Below, piece by piece: positions 19,015-42,180 of a stretch of 53,780 nt of DNA. Origin of the DNA: Nitrospirae bacterium GWC2_57_13 (GTDB taxonomy: Bacteria; Nitrospirota; UBA9217); contig MHDZ01000062.1 in NCBI GenBank assembly GCA_001805055.1, positions 1-53,780 of the forward strand. The letters are read 5' to 3'. Every line of letters starts with the position of its first letter. Positions within the stretch are counted from its first letter, which is position 1. A program made the translations under genes and the position numbers. The notes beneath the pieces are model-generated. The model had not been told where the DNA came from. It did not search any database and saw only the letters and a list, made by a program, of their open reading frames with translations.

Positions 19015-20175
19015 ATGGAAAACAGCAAAGTGAAAAATATTCTGGTGACCGGCGGCGCGGGATTCATCGGGTCGAACTTTATCCGGTACGTGCTGGGCCG
19101 GAAGGAGTTCAAAGGCCGGATCATCAACTTCGACAAGCTTACCTACGCGAGCAATCTGCTGAACCTGGCCGATGTGGAAAAGAACTTCGGCGGCAAGCAG
19201 TACTTCTTTGAGCAGGGAGACATCTGCGACTATGGCCGGGTGGAGTCAGTGCTCACGCAATATGACGTATCGGTCATCGTCCATTTCGCCGCTGAGAGCC
19301 ACGTGGACCGCTCCATTTTCGGACCAAAGCAGTTCGTCGAAACGAATGTGAACGGCACCTTCACTCTTCTGGAGGCGGCGCGTCACCACTGGCAGGGGCG
19401 CAATGACTTCAGGTTCCATCACATCAGCACAGACGAGGTCTACGGTTCACTTGGCGAATCGGGACAATTCTTCGAAACGACCCCCTATGACCCCAGGAGC
19501 CCCTATTCGGCGTCCAAGGCTTCATCGGACCATCTGGTACGAGCCTATCATCACACCTACGGCCTGCCAATGACCTTGTCTAACTGCTCGAACAATTACG
19601 GACCATACCATTTTCCCGAAAAGCTCATACCCCTGGCCATCCTGAACGCCCTGGAAGGAAAACCGCTGCCCGTGTACGGGGACGGACAGAATGTGCGCGA
19701 CTGGCTGTATGTTGAAGACCACTGCGAAGCGATCTGGCTCATCCTCCAGGCGGGAAGAGCGGGAGAAACTTACAACATCGGCGGCGAATGCGAGAAAAAA
19801 AATATCGAGGTGGTAAACGCAATCTGTGATGTGCTGGAAATGCTTTCTTCTTCAAAGGACAATCCCGCACTCCGCACTCCCCCGGCCCGCGTCCTCTCTC
19901 TATCGGAACCGGGGCGGGCGCAGTCAACAGTCCGGACGTACAAGGACCTCATTACCTTTGTTGCCGACCGGCCCGGCCACGACCGCCGGTATGCCATCAA
20001 TTGCGATAAGATCAAGCAGCAACTGGGATGGAGGCCACGCCATGATTTCCTGCAGGGATTGCACCAGACCGTTGCGTGGTACCTTTCCCATCCTGACTGG
20101 GTTGCGCAGGTGCGGAGTGGTGAGTACAGGGCATGGATGGAAAAGAATTACGGTGGTAGAGGGAAGAGCGCATAA
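19015..20175 (+). CDS. rfbB: dTDP-glucose 4,6-dehydratase
   Basis: Second step of dTDP-L-rhamnose synthesis, forming dTDP-4-keto-6-deoxyglucose with bound NAD. Extended [15 protein letters not shown] (11-22), catalytic Thr139-Asp140-Glu141 in STDEVYG and Tyr164-x3-Lys168 in PYSASK. At 386 residues it is longer than the usual 330-360. The excess lies at about residues 278-308, between DVLEML and YKDLITFV, a surface loop normally only a few residues long. The DNA there contains CGCACTC repeats and GC-rich runs. The C-terminal motif [11 protein letters not shown] is intact, so the enzyme is probably functional. A heptad tract begins at the stop codon. Confidence 0.93.
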
Positions 20176-20245
20176 AGCAGATGGCAGAGGGCAGAGGGGT
20201 TGAACCCTATGCGCCATGCGCTATGCTGTTGTCGTTATGCATTTT
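20176..20245. repeat. Heptad repeat element between rfbB and ugd
   Basis: Ten in-phase heptads from the base after the stop codon (AGCAGAT, GGCAGAG, GGCAGAG, GGGTTGA, ACCCTAT, GCGCCAT, GCGCTAT...). The core TTGAACCCTATGCGCCATGC is shared with the element after ugd. Confidence 0.7.
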
Positions 20246-30178: not shown

Positions 30179-30290
30179 CGCAGAGAGCAGAGCGCAAAGA
30201 GTGGATACTAACCCCTATGCCCCATGCTCAATGCCCATACACTACGAACTCTTTTACTATGAACTACGAGCTGCGAACTATGAACTATAA
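30179..30290. repeat. Heptad repeat element spanning plsY end and the VanZ gene start
   Basis: GCAGAGA/GCAGAGC units after the plsY stop, an ACTAACCCC core, CCATGCT units, then CTATGAA/CTACGAG/CTGCGAA/CTATGAA units. The tract runs through the in-frame starts of the next gene, so those methionine codons are repeat-derived. Confidence 0.7.
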
Positions 30291-31467
30291 AAAACTGCTC
30301 TGGTGGATTCCCACTATCGTCTGTATCGTTGCCATTATATTCATGGCAACGCAGCCTGTGCCGAGACTGCCGGCTAAACAGCTTGATAAGGTCGTCCACG
30401 TTGCGCTCTACGGCGTACTGGCGTTCCTGCTGTATCTTTCACTGCATTATACCGGAGTAAAAAGAACACTCCTCATCGCCATTCTTATTGCTGTTCTGGT
30501 CGGAGCAGTAGATGAATCACTGCAGGCTCTCACCAAAAGCCGACACTCCAGTATTGACGATTTTTTCGCAGATCTTGTCGGCGCAGCAGCAGGAGGAATG
30601 ATCTGCCGGAAACTGATTTCTCCCCGGAACATATCCTTTTTTTTCGCTGTGCTCCTCATCACCGCTTTCTTCCGGCCTTATCCGGCACAAGCCGATGAAC
30701 TCGATGTATTGAATCGTCCAGTGAATGTATCAGGGCTCACAGGCATGCTGGTCACAACGTCACCTTATACAACGCCTCAAGGCGTAGTTGAGCTGGGTAT
30801 TTCCGGCCTGGACGAAAGCAGCATCAAACCTGTCTATTCTCAGAGCGAATTCCCCCTGACAATTACCGTCGGCCTTACCGAGAGATCGGAACTTGCGCTG
30901 CGGGGATCCTATTGGCATGTAGAGGACGAAGACAAGAAAAAAAGCCGAGGGGCTGGGGACGCTGAGCTGTCGTGGAAATGGAATTTTATTACTGCCGAAG
31001 AGTACTCGACCAAACCTGCCGTGGCGCTGATCATCGCAGGTATTTTCCCGACCGCTGAACAGGTGGGGGGATTCAGCAGTGTTGTGCACTGGGGCGCCCG
31101 GGCAGGTCTTTCAGGCGGAATAGAAATTACCTGGGAAGAACATGTTATGGCAATCTATGCCGATGTCCAACTCTCCGTCCAGGATCTTTCCGACGAAGCG
31201 CTGCGCGATCGGTATCACACAGCAAATGCCGGCCTGCTCTTTCCCGTGAGCAAACACCGGAACATCCAGCTCATACTTGAATACAACATTGTAAGTGGAA
31301 AGGATCAGGATTCCATCTACGGTCTCGATCATACCGCCGTAACTCCCGGGATACGGCTTGTTTCTGAAGGGTTCAACTTTTCCATGGGAATGCAGTTCCT
31401 TCGCAAAGAACGCTCCGACGAGGACAATTCGACCCGGGTGATCGGCACGACGAGCATAAAGTTCTGA
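30280..31467 (+). CDS. VanZ-like membrane domain fused to beta-barrel-like exported domain
   Basis: About 395 residues in two dissimilar parts. The first 125 residues form a VanZ-like domain with four hydrophobic spans (LLWWIPTIVCIVAIIF, then TQPVPR and a DESLQ...SRHSSIDDFFADLVGA motif). Next comes a basic stretch, a hydrophobic segment and AQADELD, exactly like a Sec signal peptide with an Ala-x-Ala cleavage site. The last 260 residues alternate polar and hydrophobic residues with a terminal Phe (TTSIKF), as in outer-membrane barrels. An internal AGGAGGAATG at 30591-30600 could start the second part separately. ATG 30280 is the start nearest the VanZ domain; ATG 30259 and 30217 are possible and repeat-derived. 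Function unknown. Confidence 0.6.
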   Translation: MNYKKLLWWIPTIVCIVAIIFMATQPVPRLPAKQLDKVVHVALYGVLAFLLYLSLHYTGVKRTLLIAILIAVLVGAVDESLQALTKSRHSSIDDFFADLVGAAAGGMICRKLISPRNISFFFAVLLITAFFRPYPAQADELDVLNRPVNVSGLTGMLVTTSPYTTPQGVVELGISGLDESSIKPVYSQSEFPLTITVGLTERSELALRGSYWHVEDEDKKKSRGAGDAELSWKWNFITAEEYSTKPAVALIIAGIFPTAEQVGGFSSVVHWGARAGLSGGIEITWEEHVMAIYADVQLSVQDLSDEALRDRYHTANAGLLFPVSKHRNIQLILEYNIVSGKDQDSIYGLDHTAVTPGIRLVSEGFNFSMGMQFLRKERSDEDNSTRVIGTTSIKF

Positions 31468-31799: not shown

Positions 31800-31965
31800 C
31801 ATGAGCGGTCAGTGATCAGTCATCAGCAGTCAGTGATCAGCTATGGGCTGTGAGCTAAGAACTACGAGCCATCAGTATTCAGCTATCAGCTACGATCTAT
31901 GAGCTATTTTACTCTATGCTCTCTGCGCTCTGCACTATGCGATACCGGCAATCAGCTATGAGCCT
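31800..31965. repeat. Long heptad array entering the galE 3' end
   Basis: More than twenty heptads in one phase (GGTCAGT, GATCAGT, CATCAGC, ... TATCAGC, TACGATC, TATGAGC, then CTCTATG, CTCTCTG, CACTATG). It is the longest array in the window. Its end covers the last codons and stop of galE, which is read on the reverse strand. Confidence 0.8.
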
Positions 31966-35135: not shown

Positions 35136-36217
35136 TGTCGTATCTCCCTGGGGTGGATAGACGCTGACAGCATTCCCTCCACTTCAGTGATGACCTCTTC
35201 CACGGTTACTTTAGAAAAACATTCAGGCTTTCCTCCGCTCCTGTCGTAGCAGTCTCCAACGTGGCAGGCGGGACAGGTGTCCCTGATGATCGTCCTGACC
35301 AACGGTGCAAGCGGGTACCATTCACGCGTAACGTGGTAGCCGATGATCAGCGTCCTGGCACCAACGGCTCCGGCAATATGGCCCAGGCCGCTGTCGTTCC
35401 CGAGGAACAGGGCGCTCTTTTGTATTGCTACGGCCGTTTCGAGGACGCGCAAGCTCCCCACAAGATCGATGATATTTGGATGGCCAGGAGGAGGCTCTTT
35501 TTGTAGAGCAGCCCAATCCTGACGTGAACCAAGCAGAATGACTTTTTTACCTTTTTGTGCGAAGTGATGGGCAACCTGCCAGAAGCGCCCGGGACCCCAG
35601 GTCCTTCGCATATCAGCGGCAAAGGGGGCGAGCGCTAGGATCTGGTCTCCCGGTCCTATCCCCTGATCGGCATACTGTTTTTCAACAGCGATCCTTTCAG
35701 CTTCAGAGACGTACATCTCGATCCAGGGATCATGGACCTGCATGCCGTCAAGGACCAGAAGGTCGAGAAAACGCTCAGCGATATTTTTCTGAACGGGTTC
35801 ACTACCGGTCTTCGTAAGCAGGAAGCCGCGAAAATGATTTGCATATCCCACACGTTTCCGAGCACCGGTCAGAAAGGCAAACACGGCATGCCGGAACTTA
35901 GTTCCGAGAACATAAATGGTATCGTAATGCATGCTTCTGAAGCGACTGATGAATCTGGCCTTATCGAGGCAGCCATAAGCTCCGCCGATCTTCAGATAAT
36001 CCATGTCCAGGAGATGGATGTCCCTGATATGCGGATCATGCTTGAATATTTCAGCACCGATGGGGCTGAAGGCCCCCACGTCGATGGCTGCATCGGGACG
36101 GTTCCGAGCAAGGTTTTTAATAAAGGAGGTGCAGGAAACGTGGTCCCCTATCCCCTTGGCCCCAAAGGTCATAACGAGAAAGGAATGCTTTGCAGTATGC
36201 GGGCTATTAGTCTTCAT
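35132..36217 (-). CDS. Glycosyltransferase family 9 (heptosyltransferase-like)
   Basis: About 361 residues resembling LPS heptosyltransferases. The N-terminal VMTFGAKGIGDHVSCTSFIKNL is the family's first strand and loop; the C-terminal half has FLGNDSGLGHIAGAVGARTLIIGY, the donor-binding region. A cysteine-rich CPACHVGDCY lies near residue 328. ATG 36217 is preferred, because the longer in-frame start at 36232 is within heptad repeat DNA. The gene probably once led into an epimerase gene that survives only as a remnant. Donor and acceptor are unknown. Confidence 0.75.
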   Translation of the reverse strand: MKTNSPHTAKHSFLVMTFGAKGIGDHVSCTSFIKNLARNRPDAAIDVGAFSPIGAEIFKHDPHIRDIHLLDMDYLKIGGAYGCLDKARFISRFRSMHYDTIYVLGTKFRHAVFAFLTGARKRVGYANHFRGFLLTKTGSEPVQKNIAERFLDLLVLDGMQVHDPWIEMYVSEAERIAVEKQYADQGIGPGDQILALAPFAADMRRTWGPGRFWQVAHHFAQKGKKVILLGSRQDWAALQKEPPPGHPNIIDLVGSLRVLETAVAIQKSALFLGNDSGLGHIAGAVGARTLIIGYHVTREWYPLAPLVRTIIRDTCPACHVGDCYDRSGGKPECFSKVTVEEVITEVEGMLSASIHPREIRH

Positions 36218-36335
36218 GTAAGCTGTCAGCAATCAGCGGTCAGTAATGAAAATGAGCTACGAACTATCAGCTGTAAGTATTCAGCTATCAGCTTATTCAC
36301 ACCATGCCCCATGCGCTATGCACTGTGCGATTTTG
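36218..36335. repeat. Heptad repeat array between heptosyltransferase and methyltransferase
   Basis: GCTGTCA, GCAATCA, GCGGTCA, ... GAGCTAC, GAACTAT, CAGCTGT, AAGTATT, CAGCTAT, CAGCTTA, then CACCATG, CCCCATG, CGCTATG. It fills the gap between the two reverse-strand genes. Confidence 0.7.
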
Positions 36336-36338
36336 CTG

Positions 36339-37010
36339 CTACCCCATTGGCAGGAACTTGATCGCCAGCGGATACCACATCCCTATATATTGCTTCTTCC
36401 TGCTGTTAAAAGGCGTAGTCGCCCTTCCATAGGCGTTCTCGCACCGCAGAGGGCTTGATTCGATACGTTCGGGATAGAAGCGCGTGAAACCGGAAACCAA
36501 CCGGTTCATGGTCCTCGTGGTGAGCTGATGCTCGAAATAATGGATCACGGGATGGAATTCGAAAGTAGTGACAAAGGTCTTCCCGCTGAAATGCCCGTTA
36601 ACAGACCGTATGATCTCGTCTCGGACCTCTTCGGGCACATGTTCGAATACCGATATGCACGAAATATGCGTGATTTCTTTTGTAATAACCCTGGGGAGCG
36701 TGTCGGCGGTCGCGTGCTGCCGTATGCATTCGACATTGGGAATCCGGGCGGTATCCTCGGACTGGTCCTCGTCCAGGATGACCACCTTCTTCACAAAAGG
36801 GGCGATCAGCTTGGCGAAGAACCCCTTCCCTCCCCCGATATCCAGGACAACGGCATCAGGCGTCAGCTCCAGCATCTCCGCTGCCATGAGGTACTCCCAG
36901 AACCGCTGGCTGATCTTTCCTCCCCCGAACACGTTTCCATCCCATTCGGCCGGATGCTCTCGTGATCCGTACATGGTCCAGAGTCTCTTTTTTATAGCGG
37001 CCGTCTGCAT
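36339..37010 (-). CDS. Class I SAM-dependent methyltransferase
   Basis: About 223 residues with SAM motif I VLDIGGGKG (55-63) and an acidic LDEDQ after the second strand. It resembles UbiE/Methyltransf_11-type enzymes; the substrate is unknown, and surface-polysaccharide modification is suggested by neighbours. ATG 37010 has GGGAGG just upstream; the in-frame GTG 37022 includes that site and is less likely. It is transcribed after manB with about 20 bases between. Confidence 0.72.
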   Translation of the reverse strand: MQTAAIKKRLWTMYGSREHPAEWDGNVFGGGKISQRFWEYLMAAEMLELTPDAVVLDIGGGKGFFAKLIAPFVKKVVILDEDQSEDTARIPNVECIRQHATADTLPRVITKEITHISCISVFEHVPEEVRDEIIRSVNGHFSGKTFVTTFEFHPVIHYFEHQLTTRTMNRLVSGFTRFYPERIESSPLRCENAYGRATTPFNSRKKQYIGMWYPLAIKFLPMG

Positions 37011-37030
37011 TCTTCCTCCCACGTGCTACA

Positions 37031-38491
37031 TTATCCTTTACCCTGGGCCGACAATTTTGCTACTGCCTCGTTTACGTGCTGTTCCATCAGCCTCCTGATA
37101 GCACCGAGTGATCCCTGGTCCTGTGCTTCGAACCTGAGGACCAGAACGGGCTGCGTGTTCGAAGCACGGACGAGCCCCCAGCCCTTCTCGAAGACAGCCC
37201 TTACACCGTCAACCGTTATGATATCCTTCGGCTTCAGCAGCAGACTATCACCTCTGAGAAAAACTTTCTTCACGGACTCAACAACGGAAAATTTCACGGC
37301 ATCCGGACAGGCCACACGGATCTCAGGGGTGTTCAGCATCTGCGGAAGTTTCTCGCCCAGGGAGCTGAGCGTCACGGCAGGATCACGGACTTTTTCCTTT
37401 TTGAGCAATTCCACGAGGCGGCAAGCGGCATAAATGGCGTCGTCGAAGCCGAAGAAGCGGTCCGCGAAGAACAGATGGCCGCTCATCTCGCCTGCCAGAA
37501 CTGCGCCCGTCTCCTTCATCTTTGCCTTGATCAGCGAGTGGCCCGTTTTCCACATGATGGCGTTTCCGCCGTGCGCGCGAATGTCGTCATACATGGCCTG
37601 CGAGCACTTGACCTCCGAGACGAAGGTCGCGCCGGGACGTTCCTTTAAGATGTCCCTGGCGAACAGGATCATCAGCTGGTCGCCCCACAGGATATTCCCG
37701 TTCCCGTCCACAACACCGATCCGGTCGGCATCCCCGTCAAAAGCCATTCCCACGTCGGCCTTGTGCTGCTGAACCGTCGCGATCAGCGTCTCAAGATTCT
37801 CCGGCTCCGTTGGATCAGGATGGTGGTTCGGAAACGTGCCGTCGGGCTCTGAGAAGAGTTCTATCACCTCACAGCCCATTGCACGAATGGCCTCAGGAGC
37901 TGCCAGTCCAGCGGTGGCGTTTCCTGCATCCAGGACGACCTTAAGCGGAACCTCATGATGCTGGGTGAAGGCCTTCTTCAAGCACGATATATATTCCGGC
38001 ATGATGGGGCGCGATACAGCACGCAGCTCATCGTCTTTAGCTTCACTACCTGTACCCCACGAGCTACGATTTGTATTTGCTCTTTCTTCCGCTATCCTTT
38101 TAATATTCTGTATCTCTTCACCGTAGATTGTGCTGGTGCCTACGCAGAGCTTGAAGCCGTTGAATTCGGAGGGATTATGGCTTGCGGTAATCATCACACC
38201 CGCATCCGGCTTAAGGTGAAAGAGCGAAAAATAAAGCGCCGGAGTCGGGCAGAGCCCGATGTCGATGACCTCAATACCCGATTCCACGAGGCCTTTTGCG
38301 AACGCATCTCGGATGCGGGGAGAACTCAGCCGCATATCATACCCGACGGTAACGGTCCTGGCCTTGAACGGCTTGAGGTATTCACCAAATGCCCGGGCAA
38401 TGGCCAGAACAGAGGGATCTGCCAGGTCTGTATCGGCAATGCCGCGGATGTCGTATTCGCGGAAGATGTCAGGATTGAAGATTCGGCTCAT
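37031..38491 (-). CDS. manB: Phosphomannomutase/phosphoglucomutase
   Basis: Interconverts hexose-6-phosphate and hexose-1-phosphate, giving mannose-1-phosphate for GDP-mannose. The catalytic phosphoserine Ser104 is in ITASHNPSEFNG; the metal loop FDGDADRIG and the sugar loop GEMSGHLFF are intact. At 486 residues it exceeds the usual 450-465. The excess is at about residues 138-160 (ANTNRSSWGTGSEAK...), where the DNA (38012-38080) contains a CACGAGCTACGA heptad-like stretch. The start ATG itself lies in a CTATGAGC heptad with no ribosome site visible upstream. Confidence 0.92.
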   Translation of the reverse strand: MSRIFNPDIFREYDIRGIADTDLADPSVLAIARAFGEYLKPFKARTVTVGYDMRLSSPRIRDAFAKGLVESGIEVIDIGLCPTPALYFSLFHLKPDAGVMITASHNPSEFNGFKLCVGTSTIYGEEIQNIKRIAEERANTNRSSWGTGSEAKDDELRAVSRPIMPEYISCLKKAFTQHHEVPLKVVLDAGNATAGLAAPEAIRAMGCEVIELFSEPDGTFPNHHPDPTEPENLETLIATVQQHKADVGMAFDGDADRIGVVDGNGNILWGDQLMILFARDILKERPGATFVSEVKCSQAMYDDIRAHGGNAIMWKTGHSLIKAKMKETGAVLAGEMSGHLFFADRFFGFDDAIYAACRLVELLKKEKVRDPAVTLSSLGEKLPQMLNTPEIRVACPDAVKFSVVESVKKVFLRGDSLLLKPKDIITVDGVRAVFEKGWGLVRASNTQPVLVLRFEAQDQGSLGAIRRLMEQHVNEAVAKLSAQGKG

Positions 38492-38582
38492 AGCTCGTAG
38501 CTCGTAGTACAGATCCGCTCATAGCTCATGGCGCATAGTGAAAACCAGCTATCAGCTACGGGCTGCATGCTATGAGATTCCC
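38484..38582. repeat. Heptad repeat array between the S23 gene and manB
   Basis: GCTCATA, GCTCGTA, GCTCGTA, ... GCTCATA, GCTCATG, GCGCATA, ... GCTATCA, GCTACGG, GCTGCAT, GCTATGA. It overlaps the manB start codon at one end and the last codons and stop of the S23 gene at the other. Confidence 0.75.
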
Positions 38583-38948
38583 TTCTTTAATGGAATTTAT
38601 TAAGCTGGAAATCATTTTTCCGATTACACCGCCGTCTATCTTAATCCTCTGAATATCTTCCATGGAGATCCATTCGTTTTTGTGAAAGATGATGAGCTGA
38701 GTGATAGACTCATACAAGGAGCCCCGGGCAATGTAAAGAAAATGGACGAACTCCTTCTTTGAATATCGTCCCTTGCCTTCTGCAATATTCGCAGCGATGG
38801 AACTGGCAGCAGATTCACAGTTTTCAATCAGTCTATAATGTTTACGGTCGGTTTCAATCTTTTCTGTTAAGCGAATGACGTTACTGGCAAATTCAACCGC
38901 TTTTTTCCAAACCTCCAGGTCCTCAAAGCTGAATTTTGCTTCCTGCAT
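38556..38948 (-). CDS. Four-helix bundle protein (S23 / 23S rRNA-intervening-sequence family)
   Basis: 130 residues with the family blocks FEDLEVWKKAVEFA near the N-terminus, SAASSIAANIAEGKGRYSKKEF in the middle and FLYIARGSLYES. It is a small helical protein, pentameric in known structures, first seen within 23S rRNA intervening sequences and also common as a free gene in variable regions. Its function is not known. A clear AAAGGAGA ribosome site precedes ATG 38948. The C-terminal residues (IACSP) are encoded by heptad repeat DNA. The gene sits between manB and manC with heptad arrays on both sides. Confidence 0.85.
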   Translation of the reverse strand: MQEAKFSFEDLEVWKKAVEFASNVIRLTEKIETDRKHYRLIENCESAASSIAANIAEGKGRYSKKEFVHFLYIARGSLYESITQLIIFHKNEWISMEDIQRIKIDGGVIGKMISSLINSIKEGNLIACSP

Positions 38949-38954
38949 CTGTTC

Positions 38955-39046
38955 TCCTTTTTGCTTCGACCCACGAGCTATGAGCCATCAACTATGAGTT
39001 ACGAGATGTCCCCCATGAGCTATCAGCTATGAACTATGAGCTTTTC
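38955..39046. repeat. Heptad repeat array between manC and the S23 gene
   Basis: ACGAGCT, ATGAGCC, ATCAACT, ATGAGTT, ACGAGAT, ... ATGAGCT, ATCAGCT, ATGAACT, ATGAGCT. Its end supplies the stop codon of manC (AGC TCA TAG on the reverse strand). Confidence 0.75.
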
Positions 39047-40536
39047 TTGACCTCCGGCAACGGTCTCCGTTTGTTGTTCTCGTGCCGCTTATAATCATCA
39101 TCAAAGCGCACGATGTCGTCCTCTCCAAGATACTCGCCATTCTGGACCTCGATGATCTGGAGTGGAACTTTACCCGGATTTTCGAGCCGATGCTTTGCTG
39201 ATATGGGAATATAGGTGCTCTCGTTCGTATGGACGTTGTATATCTTATCTCCGCTCGTGACCCGCGCGGTACCTGCAACGACCACCCAGTGCTCGCTCCG
39301 ATGATGGTGCATCTGATGTGACAGCTTGGCTCCGGGATGCACCACGATCCTCTTTATCTTGTAGCGGTCCCCTGTTTCCAGCACCGTATAAGAACCCCAT
39401 TGCCGATGGACCGTACGGTGGGTCAGATGCTCTTCGGCATTCTTTTTTTTCAGCTCAGCAACGACGGCTTTGACTTCCTGCGCCTGTTCTTTCGGGCAGA
39501 CAAGCGTTGCATCAGGCGTATCTACGACGACCATGTCCTTCAGGCCGATAGCTGCGACAAGTCTTTTTTCCGCATAAATAATGGAATCACTGCACCCCAT
39601 GTCAATAACATTGCCCGTTTTAATGTTTCCGGAACGATCACGTACAACAACATCGTCCAGCGCCGTCCAACTTCCTACATCGGACCAGCCGATGTCCGCA
39701 GGGATCACGGCTGCCCGACCGGTCTTTTCCATCACCGCGTAATCAATGGAAAGAGGCTGTAGTTTCTTAAAAACCTCTCGAACAGTGTCTGATTCCCTGT
39801 CAGTGCCGATGTTGTTTCGTATTTCGACCAAGCCGTTATGAAGCGCTGGCGCGTGCTTTTCGATCTCCTGAAGAAGCGTCTTCGTTTTCCATACGAACAT
39901 GCCGCTGTTCCAGAAATAACCGCCCTTTGCCAGATACGTCTCCGCTGTGGCCCGGTCCGGTTTTTCCACGAATGCGTCAACGCGGTATACCCCGCCATGT
40001 GCCGTCGGCTTTGAGCCATTAGTCGTCTGCGAAGAGCTACGAGCTATGAGCTCTTTTCCCGCCTTGATATATCCATACCCCGTTTCCGGCCTGGTCGGCA
40101 CAATACCCAGGGTCACTAGGTAGTCGTTTTGAGCAGTTTCCCCGGCCATCCGCAGCAGATCAAGGAACGCCTCTCCTCGCTGTATGGCGTGGTCCGCGGA
40201 AAGTACCGCCATGGTGCTGTCCGGATCAATGCGCTCAAAATGAAGCGCGGCCAAGCCGATAGCCAGCGCTGTGTTCCTGGCTTCCGGCTCGATAATGAAG
40301 CTATTGTCCCAGGAACCGCCGAATTTTTCCTTAAGCTGGGAGTTGATATCATCAGCAAGTGCCTGATTGGTCACGATAAATACATTATCACGGTCGATCA
40401 GGGGCAGAATGCGGCCAACGGTCTGCTGGATAAGCGTATCATCTCCGCAGATGTTCAAGAGCTGTTTCGGCATTTTTTCCCGGGACAGGGGCCAGAACCG
40501 TGTGCCCGAGCCCCCTGCCATGATAATGGCAAACAT
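39034..40536 (-). CDS. manC: Mannose-1-phosphate guanylyltransferase / mannose-6-phosphate isomerase
   Basis: Bifunctional type II enzyme making GDP-mannose. The N-terminal guanylyltransferase domain opens IIMAGGSGTRFWPLSRE and includes PKQLL and FVEKPD. The C-terminal cupin isomerase domain contains RPWGSYTVLE-like RQWGSYTVLE and VHPGAKLSHQMHHHRSEHWVVV. At 500 residues it is about 20-30 longer than usual. An extra peptide at residues about 161-181 (ELIARSSSQTTNG...) is encoded by an internal heptad repeat. Translation starts at ATG 40536 after CCGGAGGA. The stop lies in heptad DNA. Confidence 0.94.
   Translation of the reverse strand: MFAIIMAGGSGTRFWPLSREKMPKQLLNICGDDTLIQQTVGRILPLIDRDNVFIVTNQALADDINSQLKEKFGGSWDNSFIIEPEARNTALAIGLAALHFERIDPDSTMAVLSADHAIQRGEAFLDLLRMAGETAQNDYLVTLGIVPTRPETGYGYIKAGKELIARSSSQTTNGSKPTAHGGVYRVDAFVEKPDRATAETYLAKGGYFWNSGMFVWKTKTLLQEIEKHAPALHNGLVEIRNNIGTDRESDTVREVFKKLQPLSIDYAVMEKTGRAAVIPADIGWSDVGSWTALDDVVVRDRSGNIKTGNVIDMGCSDSIIYAEKRLVAAIGLKDMVVVDTPDATLVCPKEQAQEVKAVVAELKKKNAEEHLTHRTVHRQWGSYTVLETGDRYKIKRIVVHPGAKLSHQMHHHRSEHWVVVAGTARVTSGDKIYNVHTNESTYIPISAKHRLENPGKVPLQIIEVQNGEYLGEDDIVRFDDDYKRHENNKRRPLPEVKKSS
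40022..40058. repeat. Heptad repeat inside the manC coding sequence
   Basis: GAAGAGCTACGAGCTATGAG and adjoining bases match the intergenic CTATGAGC-type heptads. They lie in frame within manC and encode part of the extra loop between GYGYIKAG and YRVDAFVEKPD. Confidence 0.7.
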
Positions 40537-40564
40537 ATATGAATCCTCCGGAGTCAGCTTTTAA

Positions 40565-40645
40565 GGCGACTGGTAGCTGGTAGTTTAAATTGTAACTACG
40601 AGCTACGAGCAATGACCTATGAGCTACGAATTATCAACTATGCCC
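40565..40645. repeat. Heptad repeat array upstream of manC
   Basis: GGCGACT, GGTAGCT, GGTAGTT, ... ACTACGA, GCTACGA, GCAATGA, CCTATGA, GCTACGA, ATTATCA, ACTATGC. It lies between the divergent manC and wbaP genes and leaves the wbaP promoter intact beyond it. Confidence 0.7.
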
Positions 40646-40666
40646 TTCTGCTCTTACCATGATATC

Positions 40667-40695
40667 TTGTCATTTTATGAAGCCTGTGCTATAGT
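40667..40695 (+). promoter_or_regulatory. Sigma-70 promoter of the wbaP-like gene
   Basis: TTGTCA (40667-40672), a 17-base spacer and TATAGT (40690-40695). A transcript from about 40702 would have a 60-base leader before ATG 40762. Confidence 0.6.
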
Positions 40696-40761
40696 CCTTG
40701 AATTCAACCTGCGAATCAAAGATTGCCGTAATTCATATAGGTAAGTGAGGTGTTGCCACAC

Positions 40762-41064
40762 ATGAACCATGGAAGACGCAGATTGGGCATGATTATACTG
40801 TTTTTGTCCGATATTGTCATTCTTTTTTTGGTCCTTCTCCTGGCTCTTCAGATCAGGTCGCTCCTTCCTCTCGTTACGCCGGCCTTTACAGAATTTTCCG
40901 GCAGTGTTCGCAGCTTTATATGGTTCCTTCCTATCTGGATATTCATCCTCGCCTACGAAGGGGCCTATACCCGCAAGTACACGTTATGGGATGAAGTCAA
41001 ACTGCTTTGGAAAACGACGGTCTTTTCAACGATCACGCTTTTTTCCGTTCTTTTTCTCTCCTAG
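40762..41064 (+). CDS. Polyprenyl-glycosylphosphotransferase, N-terminal membrane part (amber-split)
   Basis: 100 residues holding the first membrane helices of a WbaP-type initiating glycosylphosphotransferase (IILFLSDIVILFLVLLLAL, FIWFLPIWIFILAYEGAY, then WKTTVFSTITLFSVLFLS). It ends at TAG 41062-41064, and the same frame continues immediately as the rest of the enzyme. ATG 40762 with AGGTG upstream is preferred over GTG 40750. In intact homologues this part and the next are one chain of about 470 residues, so this is a split gene or a pseudogene half. Confidence 0.75.
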   Translation: MNHGRRRLGMIILFLSDIVILFLVLLLALQIRSLLPLVTPAFTEFSGSVRSFIWFLPIWIFILAYEGAYTRKYTLWDEVKLLWKTTVFSTITLFSVLFLS

Positions 41065-42180
41065 ATGAGCGCGGGAGTTTCGAGAACAGTCGTCGTACTC
41101 ATGGCTGTCCTATCGGCTGCGATCTTCCCGGTCCTTCGAATAACCGTTAAGCGCCTGCTTGTCTCATCGGGCCTGCTCAAGACGAGAGTGTTGATCGTAG
41201 GTGCAGGTTCCAAGGGCAGAAAGGTTCTCGATGCGCTCAGAAGAGAGCCCAATCTCGGCTATGAGGTCGCGGGATTCATTGCTGACACTGCAGAAAAGAA
41301 ACGCTCTCTGCAGGGGATTAAAATATACAATCGCCTTGAACAGGTGGAGCGCTTTATCAAACCCGGCGATATTCAGGACGTCGTGATCGCGCTTTCCGGC
41401 ACGGACAAAGAGCGGCTCTCCCGGTTTGTCAACAAACTTCAGCACAAAGTGAGGAACGTACTGTATATTCCCGACATATCCGGGCTGGCCGTCGTCGGCA
41501 CCGAACTGCGCCATTTTTTCCAGGATCAGCTTTTTGCTATTGAGATAAAGAACAGCCTTGCACAGCCCGTCAACTATTTCGTCAAAAGGTTGTCAGATTA
41601 TCTGATCGGAATCGCGCTTTTCTTTGTTCTGGCCATCCCTTTGCTTATCATAGCCATTGCCATACGCATGACATCGGCCGGTCCTGGCATTTTTAAACAG
41701 GAACGTATCGGCAGGCGCGGAAAGCCTTTCTTGTGTTATAAATTTCGGACAATGCATAAGGACGCAGAAGAGCGTTTGCAGACCATCCTTGAATCCAATC
41801 CCTCTGCGAAGACTGAATGGGATACTCACTGGAAGCTTCGTAATGATCCTCGAGTAACTTCGATCGGAAGTTTCTTGCGAAAAACATCACTCGATGAACT
41901 GCCTCAGATCTTTAACGTTCTGAAGGGTGACATGAGCCTTGTAGGGCCGAGGCCATATCTTCCGAGTGAGTGGGATGCGATCAAAGAGTACAGTGAACTT
42001 ATTCACAGTGTGCCGCCTGGCATAACGGGACTATGGCAGGTGAGCGGACGAAGCAATTCTTCATACGAACAAAGGCTGAATTATGATTCCTGGTATGTCC
42101 GGAACTGGAACATGTGGCTGGATATGGTGATCATGATGAAGACAGTAAAGGTGGTCCTAAAAAAAGAAGGTGCTAGGTGA
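41065..42180 (+). CDS. Polyprenyl-glycosylphosphotransferase, catalytic part (WbaP/WcaJ family)
   Basis: 371 residues directly after the in-frame amber codon. It begins with two or three further membrane helices, then a Rossmann-like CoA-binding fold (VLIVGAGSKGRKVLDAL), another helix (YLIGIALFFVLAIPLLIIAI) and the cytoplasmic bacterial sugar transferase domain with KFRTMHKDAEERL, TSLDELPQIFNVLKGDMSLVGPRP and GITGLWQVSGRS. It would transfer a sugar-1-phosphate to undecaprenyl phosphate, starting O-antigen or exopolysaccharide units. An ATG follows the TAG at once, but no ribosome site is visible, so expression needs readthrough or termination-reinitiation. Confidence 0.85.
   Translation: MSAGVSRTVVVLMAVLSAAIFPVLRITVKRLLVSSGLLKTRVLIVGAGSKGRKVLDALRREPNLGYEVAGFIADTAEKKRSLQGIKIYNRLEQVERFIKPGDIQDVVIALSGTDKERLSRFVNKLQHKVRNVLYIPDISGLAVVGTELRHFFQDQLFAIEIKNSLAQPVNYFVKRLSDYLIGIALFFVLAIPLLIIAIAIRMTSAGPGIFKQERIGRRGKPFLCYKFRTMHKDAEERLQTILESNPSAKTEWDTHWKLRNDPRVTSIGSFLRKTSLDELPQIFNVLKGDMSLVGPRPYLPSEWDAIKEYSELIHSVPPGITGLWQVSGRSNSSYEQRLNYDSWYVRNWNMWLDMVIMMKTVKVVLKKEGAR

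Follow-up and report, generated by a model that had tools for sequence, protein, structure and literature searches.

How did a run of tandem 7-nt units come to lie in frame inside manC, and where did the units come from? The window, by which we mean the whole stretch of 53,780 nt that was analysed, carries the gene and the tract as follows.

39034..40536, reverse strand: manC, mannose-1-phosphate guanylyltransferase / mannose-6-phosphate isomerase, 500 aa, frame intact
39996-40051, reverse strand: heptad tract in manC, residues 162-181, eight in-phase heptads, 56 nt

The ManC loop and its heptads

All expected Pfam domains are present in the ManC protein (NTP_transferase, ManC_GMP_beta-helix and MannoseP_isomer), which scores 560 bits against NCBIfam TIGR01479. 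The motifs GYGYIKAG and VYRVDAFVEKP are separated by 22 residues, compared with 10 in six ManC proteins of the same family (G001, G005, G008, G009, G010 and G012; 68-73% identical). The net gain is 12 residues, or 36 nt. Since 36 nt cannot be divided into whole heptads, some native loop has to have been lost, and about 20 nt of it are missing. The first-pass annotation had described in-frame heptads adding about 21 residues. The tract does lie in frame between intact GYGYIKAG and VDAFVEKPD blocks, but the gain is 12 residues and not 21 because of the lost native sequence. It had proposed homologues with the same loop but no heptads as a refuting test, and none of about 105 ManC homologues had the present loop. 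Mapped on the predicted structure, the insert forms the tip of a beta-hairpin between strands 155-164 and 183-191, with pLDDT below 50 at residues 168-179. We read the loop as exposed, floppy and tolerant.

In order, the eight heptads are GCTCATA, GCTCGTA, GCTCTTC, GCAGACG, ACTAATG, GCTCAAA, GCCGACG and GCACATG. A weight matrix built from the window's other arrays scores them 11.2, 10.2, 1.7, -2.3, -0.3, 7.0, -0.7 and 2.4, and their summed in-phase score of 29.2 compares with a maximum of -3.2 in 40 Markov-simulated windows. Near consensus are only the first two heptads and GCTCAAA; the six weaker heptads by themselves have P ~9e-7 per site. Same-phase heptads on either side mostly score -5 to -18, with the exception of one GTTGACG (2.3). 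By plain lag-7 self-similarity the tract is weak (score 11), and its best ungapped match to the rest of the window exceeds that of 300 out of 300 dinucleotide shuffles. Like the window's other arrays, it consists of 7-nt tandem units beyond chance, as in long heptanucleotide simple sequence repeats. The third heptad breaks the consensus, at the point at which TAG would appear in a perfect copy. A hairpin role for the tract was considered and discarded, its RNA fold being ordinary (z -0.5).

The exact 17-mer AGCTACGAGCTATGAGC occurs at two sites only in the 3.32-Mb genome, the manC loop and 38486-38502, and the second of these sits in the array adjoining manB on one side of an S23 gene. Allowing up to one mismatch, GAGCTAYGAGCTAY has 12 genome sites (control, 4). 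Ten of the 12 are on the present contig, between 25.4 and 40.6 kb, and this contig makes up 1.6% of the genome; the GAGCTAY heptad type is thus regional. The matrix score, the shuffles and the genome-wide 17-mer match bear out the coordinates and the heptad reading of the first-pass annotation. Its further point, that a repeat present elsewhere in the genome had entered a coding gene with the frame kept in a tolerated loop, is supported as well. In our view the manC insert is probably a small heptad array, decayed in part, whose type matches that on the flanks of the neighbouring S23 gene.

Period 7 is the sole enriched period in the window, with 10 segments scoring at least 14 and none at eight other lags. 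GCAGAGG and GCGCATG are further heptad types in the window. Arrays outside the manC-manB region proper are:

40570..40642: GAGCTAY-type array immediately upstream of the start of manC; a hairpin is predicted for it (z about -3)
31804..31963: further arrays with GAGCTAY-type heptads, same contig
30256..30291: GAACTAY-type array at the 5' end of open frame 30217-31467

The open frame 30217-31467 opens within its heptad array (30217-30291; peptide MNYELRTMNYK). Translation may really start at the array's last ATG, and heptads may thus supply start codons. In rfbB (19015-20175) there are 13 extra residues relative to same-family proteins, in one loop (19820-19960) that begins with two CCGCACT units, and the stop codon lies inside a GCAGAGG-type array (20155-20198). 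We considered rfbB as a second clear in-frame heptad insertion and find it doubtful; its lag-7 score is 11 and the first residues of the loop, DNPAL, match a relative.

An S23 gene between inverted arrays

The S23 gene and its surroundings, between manC and manB, comprise the following.

37031..38491, reverse strand: manB-type phosphoglucomutase/phosphomannomutase (NCBIfam NF046027, 505 bits, under the model cut-off of 600)
38486..38538: manB-side heptad array of the S23 gene, in inverted orientation to that at 38975-39042
38556..38948, reverse strand: S23 / 23S_rRNA_IVP four-helix-bundle gene, 130 aa (PF05635, 103 bits; TIGR02436)
38975..39042: manC-side heptad array of the S23 gene (TRF period 7; empty-site comparison)

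The S23 protein has a PDB relative in 2gsc (E 8e-14). GAGCTAY arrays flank the gene on both sides in opposite orientations. The manC-side array provides the last codons and the stop of manC (stop within 39034-39042), and the manB start codon (38486-38491) is inside the other array. The S23 gene and the two inverted arrays make up an insertion of about 546 bp at the overlap of the manC stop and manB start, which is an empty ATGA site in five relatives (G001, G005, G008, G009 and G012). Genome G004 has an S23 element of 487 bp at the same site, and in both genomes the S23 gene is 85-90 bp from manC. When the element is folded as RNA, its two arrays pair with each other (z -2.87; none of 100 shuffles as stable).

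The G004 manC has a short loop without heptads despite the common S23 element. This fits arrival of the loop tract after the S23 element, an order that is weakly constrained because the two manC sequences are only 52% identical.

The insertion at 38486-39042 has an S23-family ORF and terminal inverted repeats able to pair, as do S23-type intervening sequences (IVS), but it is located between manC and manB and not within a 23S rRNA gene helix. It is therefore IVS-like and not an rRNA IVS. As compared with MITEs and transposons, it has inverted arrays around S23 and no transposase. Rfam families had no match at 36000-41500, and PADLOC found no match of S23 to known defence proteins. No target-site duplication was obvious by eye at the manC/manB junction, and excision, target-site duplication and transposase were not seen for the S23 element or the arrays. 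The S23 gene between inverted arrays is more informative than the manC tract itself.

S23 four-helix-bundle proteins are widespread and, to our knowledge, have no known function. We surveyed 66 S23 loci from the same family, the phylum and some proteobacterial genomes, using 220-bp flanks. Arrays with a period of 6-9 were found in 111 of 129 flanks adjacent to S23 genes, compared with 8 of 117 at a distance of about 1 kb and 5 of 56 next to control genes, though the loci are phylogenetically non-independent and P values overstate the association. Other periods were equally frequent in S23 and comparison flanks. Both flanks carried arrays in 47 of 63 S23 genes, and in 53 of 64 the upstream flank matched the reverse-complemented downstream flank better than it matched the downstream flank directly. 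The heptad is specific to each S23 gene, inverted scores against other loci being near background. This tight, statistically strong link between S23 genes and arrays offers a concrete handle on S23 function.

S23 proteins score over the Pfam cut-off in 76 of 148 genomes of the phylum, which the named best ManC matches indicate is probably Nitrospirota. Some S23 genes (L146, L147, L155, L162, L164, L165 and L173) have inverted arrays of 8-nt or 9-nt units, not 7. S23 is beside manC more than once, since in another family an S23 gene is directly upstream of a manC-like gene in two genomes (G018:C155 39584-41143 and G027:C45 7992-9470).

Heptads in other manC genes and in other coding sequences

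Across 110 manC genes (156 kb), seven carry heptads in the loop between GYGYI and FVEKP, of five types:

GAGCTAY: own genome (G000)
AGAAGTC: G036 and G060
AAGGCTM: G032
GGGTCAA: G024 and G053
AGTCCTC: HyVt-444, a gammaproteobacterium

At a score of at least 14, these genes contain seven period-7 segments, six of them in the loop and one at another place in the manC of G053; eight other periods gave no segment. At a score of at least 10, seven of nine heptad segments are within the loop, which is about 6% of the gene (P ~1e-7, ignoring relatedness). In G000, G024, G036, G060 and HyVt-444, the heptad type of the loop is found again at other places in the genome. A loop type that recurs within a genome and differs between genomes strongly suggests, from sequence comparison, that the heptads have spread. 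The first-pass annotation went further and took the tract to show that the element is, or was, mobile. Mobility itself is an inference, excision, target-site duplication and transposase not having been seen.

The G053 manC (L014) has a second in-frame array, AGAAGTCAGAATCCAGAATCC, at residues ~73-84 (peptide SRIQKSEV), of a type unlike that of its loop. The manC loop of G028 (L008) contains a palindromic CCCCCTT...AAGGGGG repeat, CCCCCTTAATCCCCCTTTTTCAAAGGGGGA, coding for IPLNPPFSKGE, and the same repeat is present again just downstream of that manC. We also asked whether S23 adjoins every heptad-bearing manC, and it does not. It does so in the own genome and is 1.4 kb off in HyVt-444, and no S23 gene was found within ~1.5 kb of manC in G036, G060, G024, G053 and G032, so proximity to S23 is not required.

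In-frame, sense arrays of GGGTCAA (G024, G047) or AGAAGTC (G036, G060) lie inside genes or at gene ends. The genes concerned encode CbiD, two glycosyltransferases, TrpB, LolA, a multihaem cytochrome, ribonucleotide reductase, a TPR membrane protein and a radical-SAM protein. The in-gene heptads of these other core genes are always in sense orientation, and in G024 and G047 the identical GGGTCAA heptad is found in CbiD, the glycosyltransferases, TrpB, LolA and a cytochrome. The array type at S23 genes is also the in-gene type in G036, G047 and HyVt-444. No S23-adjacent GGGTCAA or AGAAGTC arrays were found at the dispersed in-gene sites within the 3-kb stretches covered. In the G047 CbiD gene (L223), a block bounded by GGGTCAA arrays occurs twice in tandem in an open frame, as if duplicated through recombination between the arrays, or as if by an assembly artefact.

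Reading-frame logic bears on where such arrays can lie. Because 7 and 3 are coprime, whichever frame of a strand is read, a perfect heptad array encodes one and the same 7-residue peptide, and it is therefore open in all three frames or closed in all three. GGGTCAA encodes GSRVKGQ. GAGCTAT contains a TGA reading and its complement reads TAG, so GAGCTAY arrays are largely barred from genes. By this rule GGGTCAA and AGAAGTC pile up in genes and GAGCTAY stays mostly intergenic.

Origin of the tract and comparison with known systems

The account that we consider likely is that S23-linked (IVS-like) heptad arrays are copied elsewhere and survive in genes when they are open, keep the frame and lie in loops. 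An S23 gene bracketed by inverted heptad arrays would have inserted at the manC/manB overlap, and a heptad copy would then have taken the place of some of the manC hairpin loop between GYGYI and FVEKP. The donor would be the S23-flanking array or a similar one nearby, an assignment that is not provable given an exact match of 17-18 nt and a mostly degenerate tract. The location of 10 of 12 GAGCTAY arrays on one contig and the loss of native loop suggest that copying was local and replicative, perhaps by template switching or gene-conversion-like patching. Selection would then have retained a version that had no stops and left the frame unchanged, in a loop able to tolerate it. The tract may owe its survival to the exposure and tolerance of the loop, to a net change divisible by three and to the break in the consensus at the would-be TAG.

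Alternatively, a 7-nt duplication could have arisen by slippage in the manC loop itself and expanded there, independent of other arrays. Slippage is the accepted explanation for heptanucleotide repeats, which in many bacteria outnumber other long simple repeats (PMC4679880), and the copy number of the S23-flanking heptad of Coxiella differs between strains (PMC4990558). However, the loop heptad matches dispersed arrays of the same genome in all five cases named above, and one heptad per genome at unrelated loci (e.g., CbiD, TrpB and LolA of G024/G047) is not what home-grown repeats would give. We therefore judge a slippage origin improbable, although slippage may determine how long arrays are. 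A variable loop that diverged in the ordinary way and merely resembles heptads would sit well with the modest lag-7 self-similarity, but the exact 17-mer, the 0 of 300 shuffles and an in-phase score far above simulation make chance scarcely credible. Assembly errors in metagenome-assembled genomes are a possible source of tracts, but they would not give in-frame, open, matching tracts in several genomes. It is very unlikely that the loop extension or its RNA is adaptive or regulatory, altering ManC activity or expression. The same loop has been struck repeatedly in manC of several families, and Geobacter heptad elements have been proposed to be regulatory (PMC2700814), but inserts of different genomes are unrelated in sequence and in length, the same heptads occur in unrelated proteins, and the manC segment is of low confidence and unstructured in the model, with an ordinary RNA fold.

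Another reading is that of a true mobile element, in which S23 acts on the inverted arrays, as a DNA or RNA stem, and moves elements and at times bare arrays, with the manC tract as a bare-array insertion. A gene within its own inverted pair, the occupied and empty sites, the many types per genome and the stable fold with paired arrays all point this way, as does the Coxiella IVS with its terminal inverted repeats, S23p, tandem heptamers and RNase III cut at the first repeat (PMC4990558). The own genome also encodes two reverse transcriptases. These RVT_1 genes lie at G000:C39:517-1140 and G000:C102:50059-50700. Yet S23 proteins are small four-helix bundles without a known catalytic motif, neither target duplication nor terminal consensus was seen, the heptad differs per S23 gene so that a single recognised sequence is unlikely, and the reverse transcriptases were not linked to S23 loci. 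We find this mechanism doubtful. Slightly less so, and offered as a tentative generalisation, is the idea that S23 genes are a widespread mobile or selfish class ended by inverted locus-specific heptad arrays (sometimes of 8 or 9 nt), with the S23 protein maintaining or spreading the arrays; those that are shed would go on supplying proteins with in-frame loops, with ManC as a recurrent target.

The frame rule given above makes heptad arrays a simple natural source of new protein loops, and the ManC loop is a place for a direct test of this. Each of the three components, heptad repeats, IVS/S23 elements and repeats inserted in frame, has been described before (PMC4679880, PMC2700814, PMC4692102, PMC4990558, PMC4476775, PMC10969869). 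In the open-licence literature we found no report of a recurrent protein loop as a heptad landing site and none of a general link between S23 and locus-specific inverted heptad arrays, the Coxiella IVS paper (PMC4990558) being the sole S23-heptad case. In Coxiella burnetii, the 23S rRNA IVS has an S23p ORF and terminal inverted repeats and is described as a selfish element, and three tandem heptamers (GACAGAT), variable in number between strains, are just before the S23 start (PMC4990558). The present element likewise has an S23 gene between terminal inverted repeats with heptamers close by, whereas the Coxiella IVS is within 23S rRNA and is excised by RNase III, and ours is in a protein operon with a heptad that differs per locus.

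Dispersed tandem heptads, some in genes or at start and stop codons, are described in several reports. Geobacter metallireducens has 49 copies of (GGGACCG)4 within and between genes (PMC2700814), Beggiatoaceae have TAACTGA (PMC4679880) and Xanthomonas and Nostoc have GGGAATC (PMC4692102). A genome usually has a single such heptad, interpreted as a regulatory or G4 element, and S23, inverted pairing and a recurrent protein site are not described in the passages covered. The P6b region of the Nostoc trnL intron is similar in having inverted 7-nt arrays in a tolerated loop and whole-class heptad replacement; these arrays are in group I intron RNA and not in a protein, and the passages covered do not mention an S23 gene (PMC4476775). 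Comparable with the manC tract are the Rickettsia palindromic elements, in which repeat DNA is in frame in unrelated genes and tolerated by the protein (PMC10969869). The same holds for the heptads of manC here and, in related genomes, for those of CbiD, ribonucleotide reductase, TrpB and other proteins. The Rickettsia elements are palindromes of ~150 bp (~100-150 bp by the criterion used) with a conserved peptide, whereas the arrays described here are of 7-nt tandem units, several of them unrelated and up to many per genome, and the manC tract is a 56-nt tandem repeat without a notable fold.
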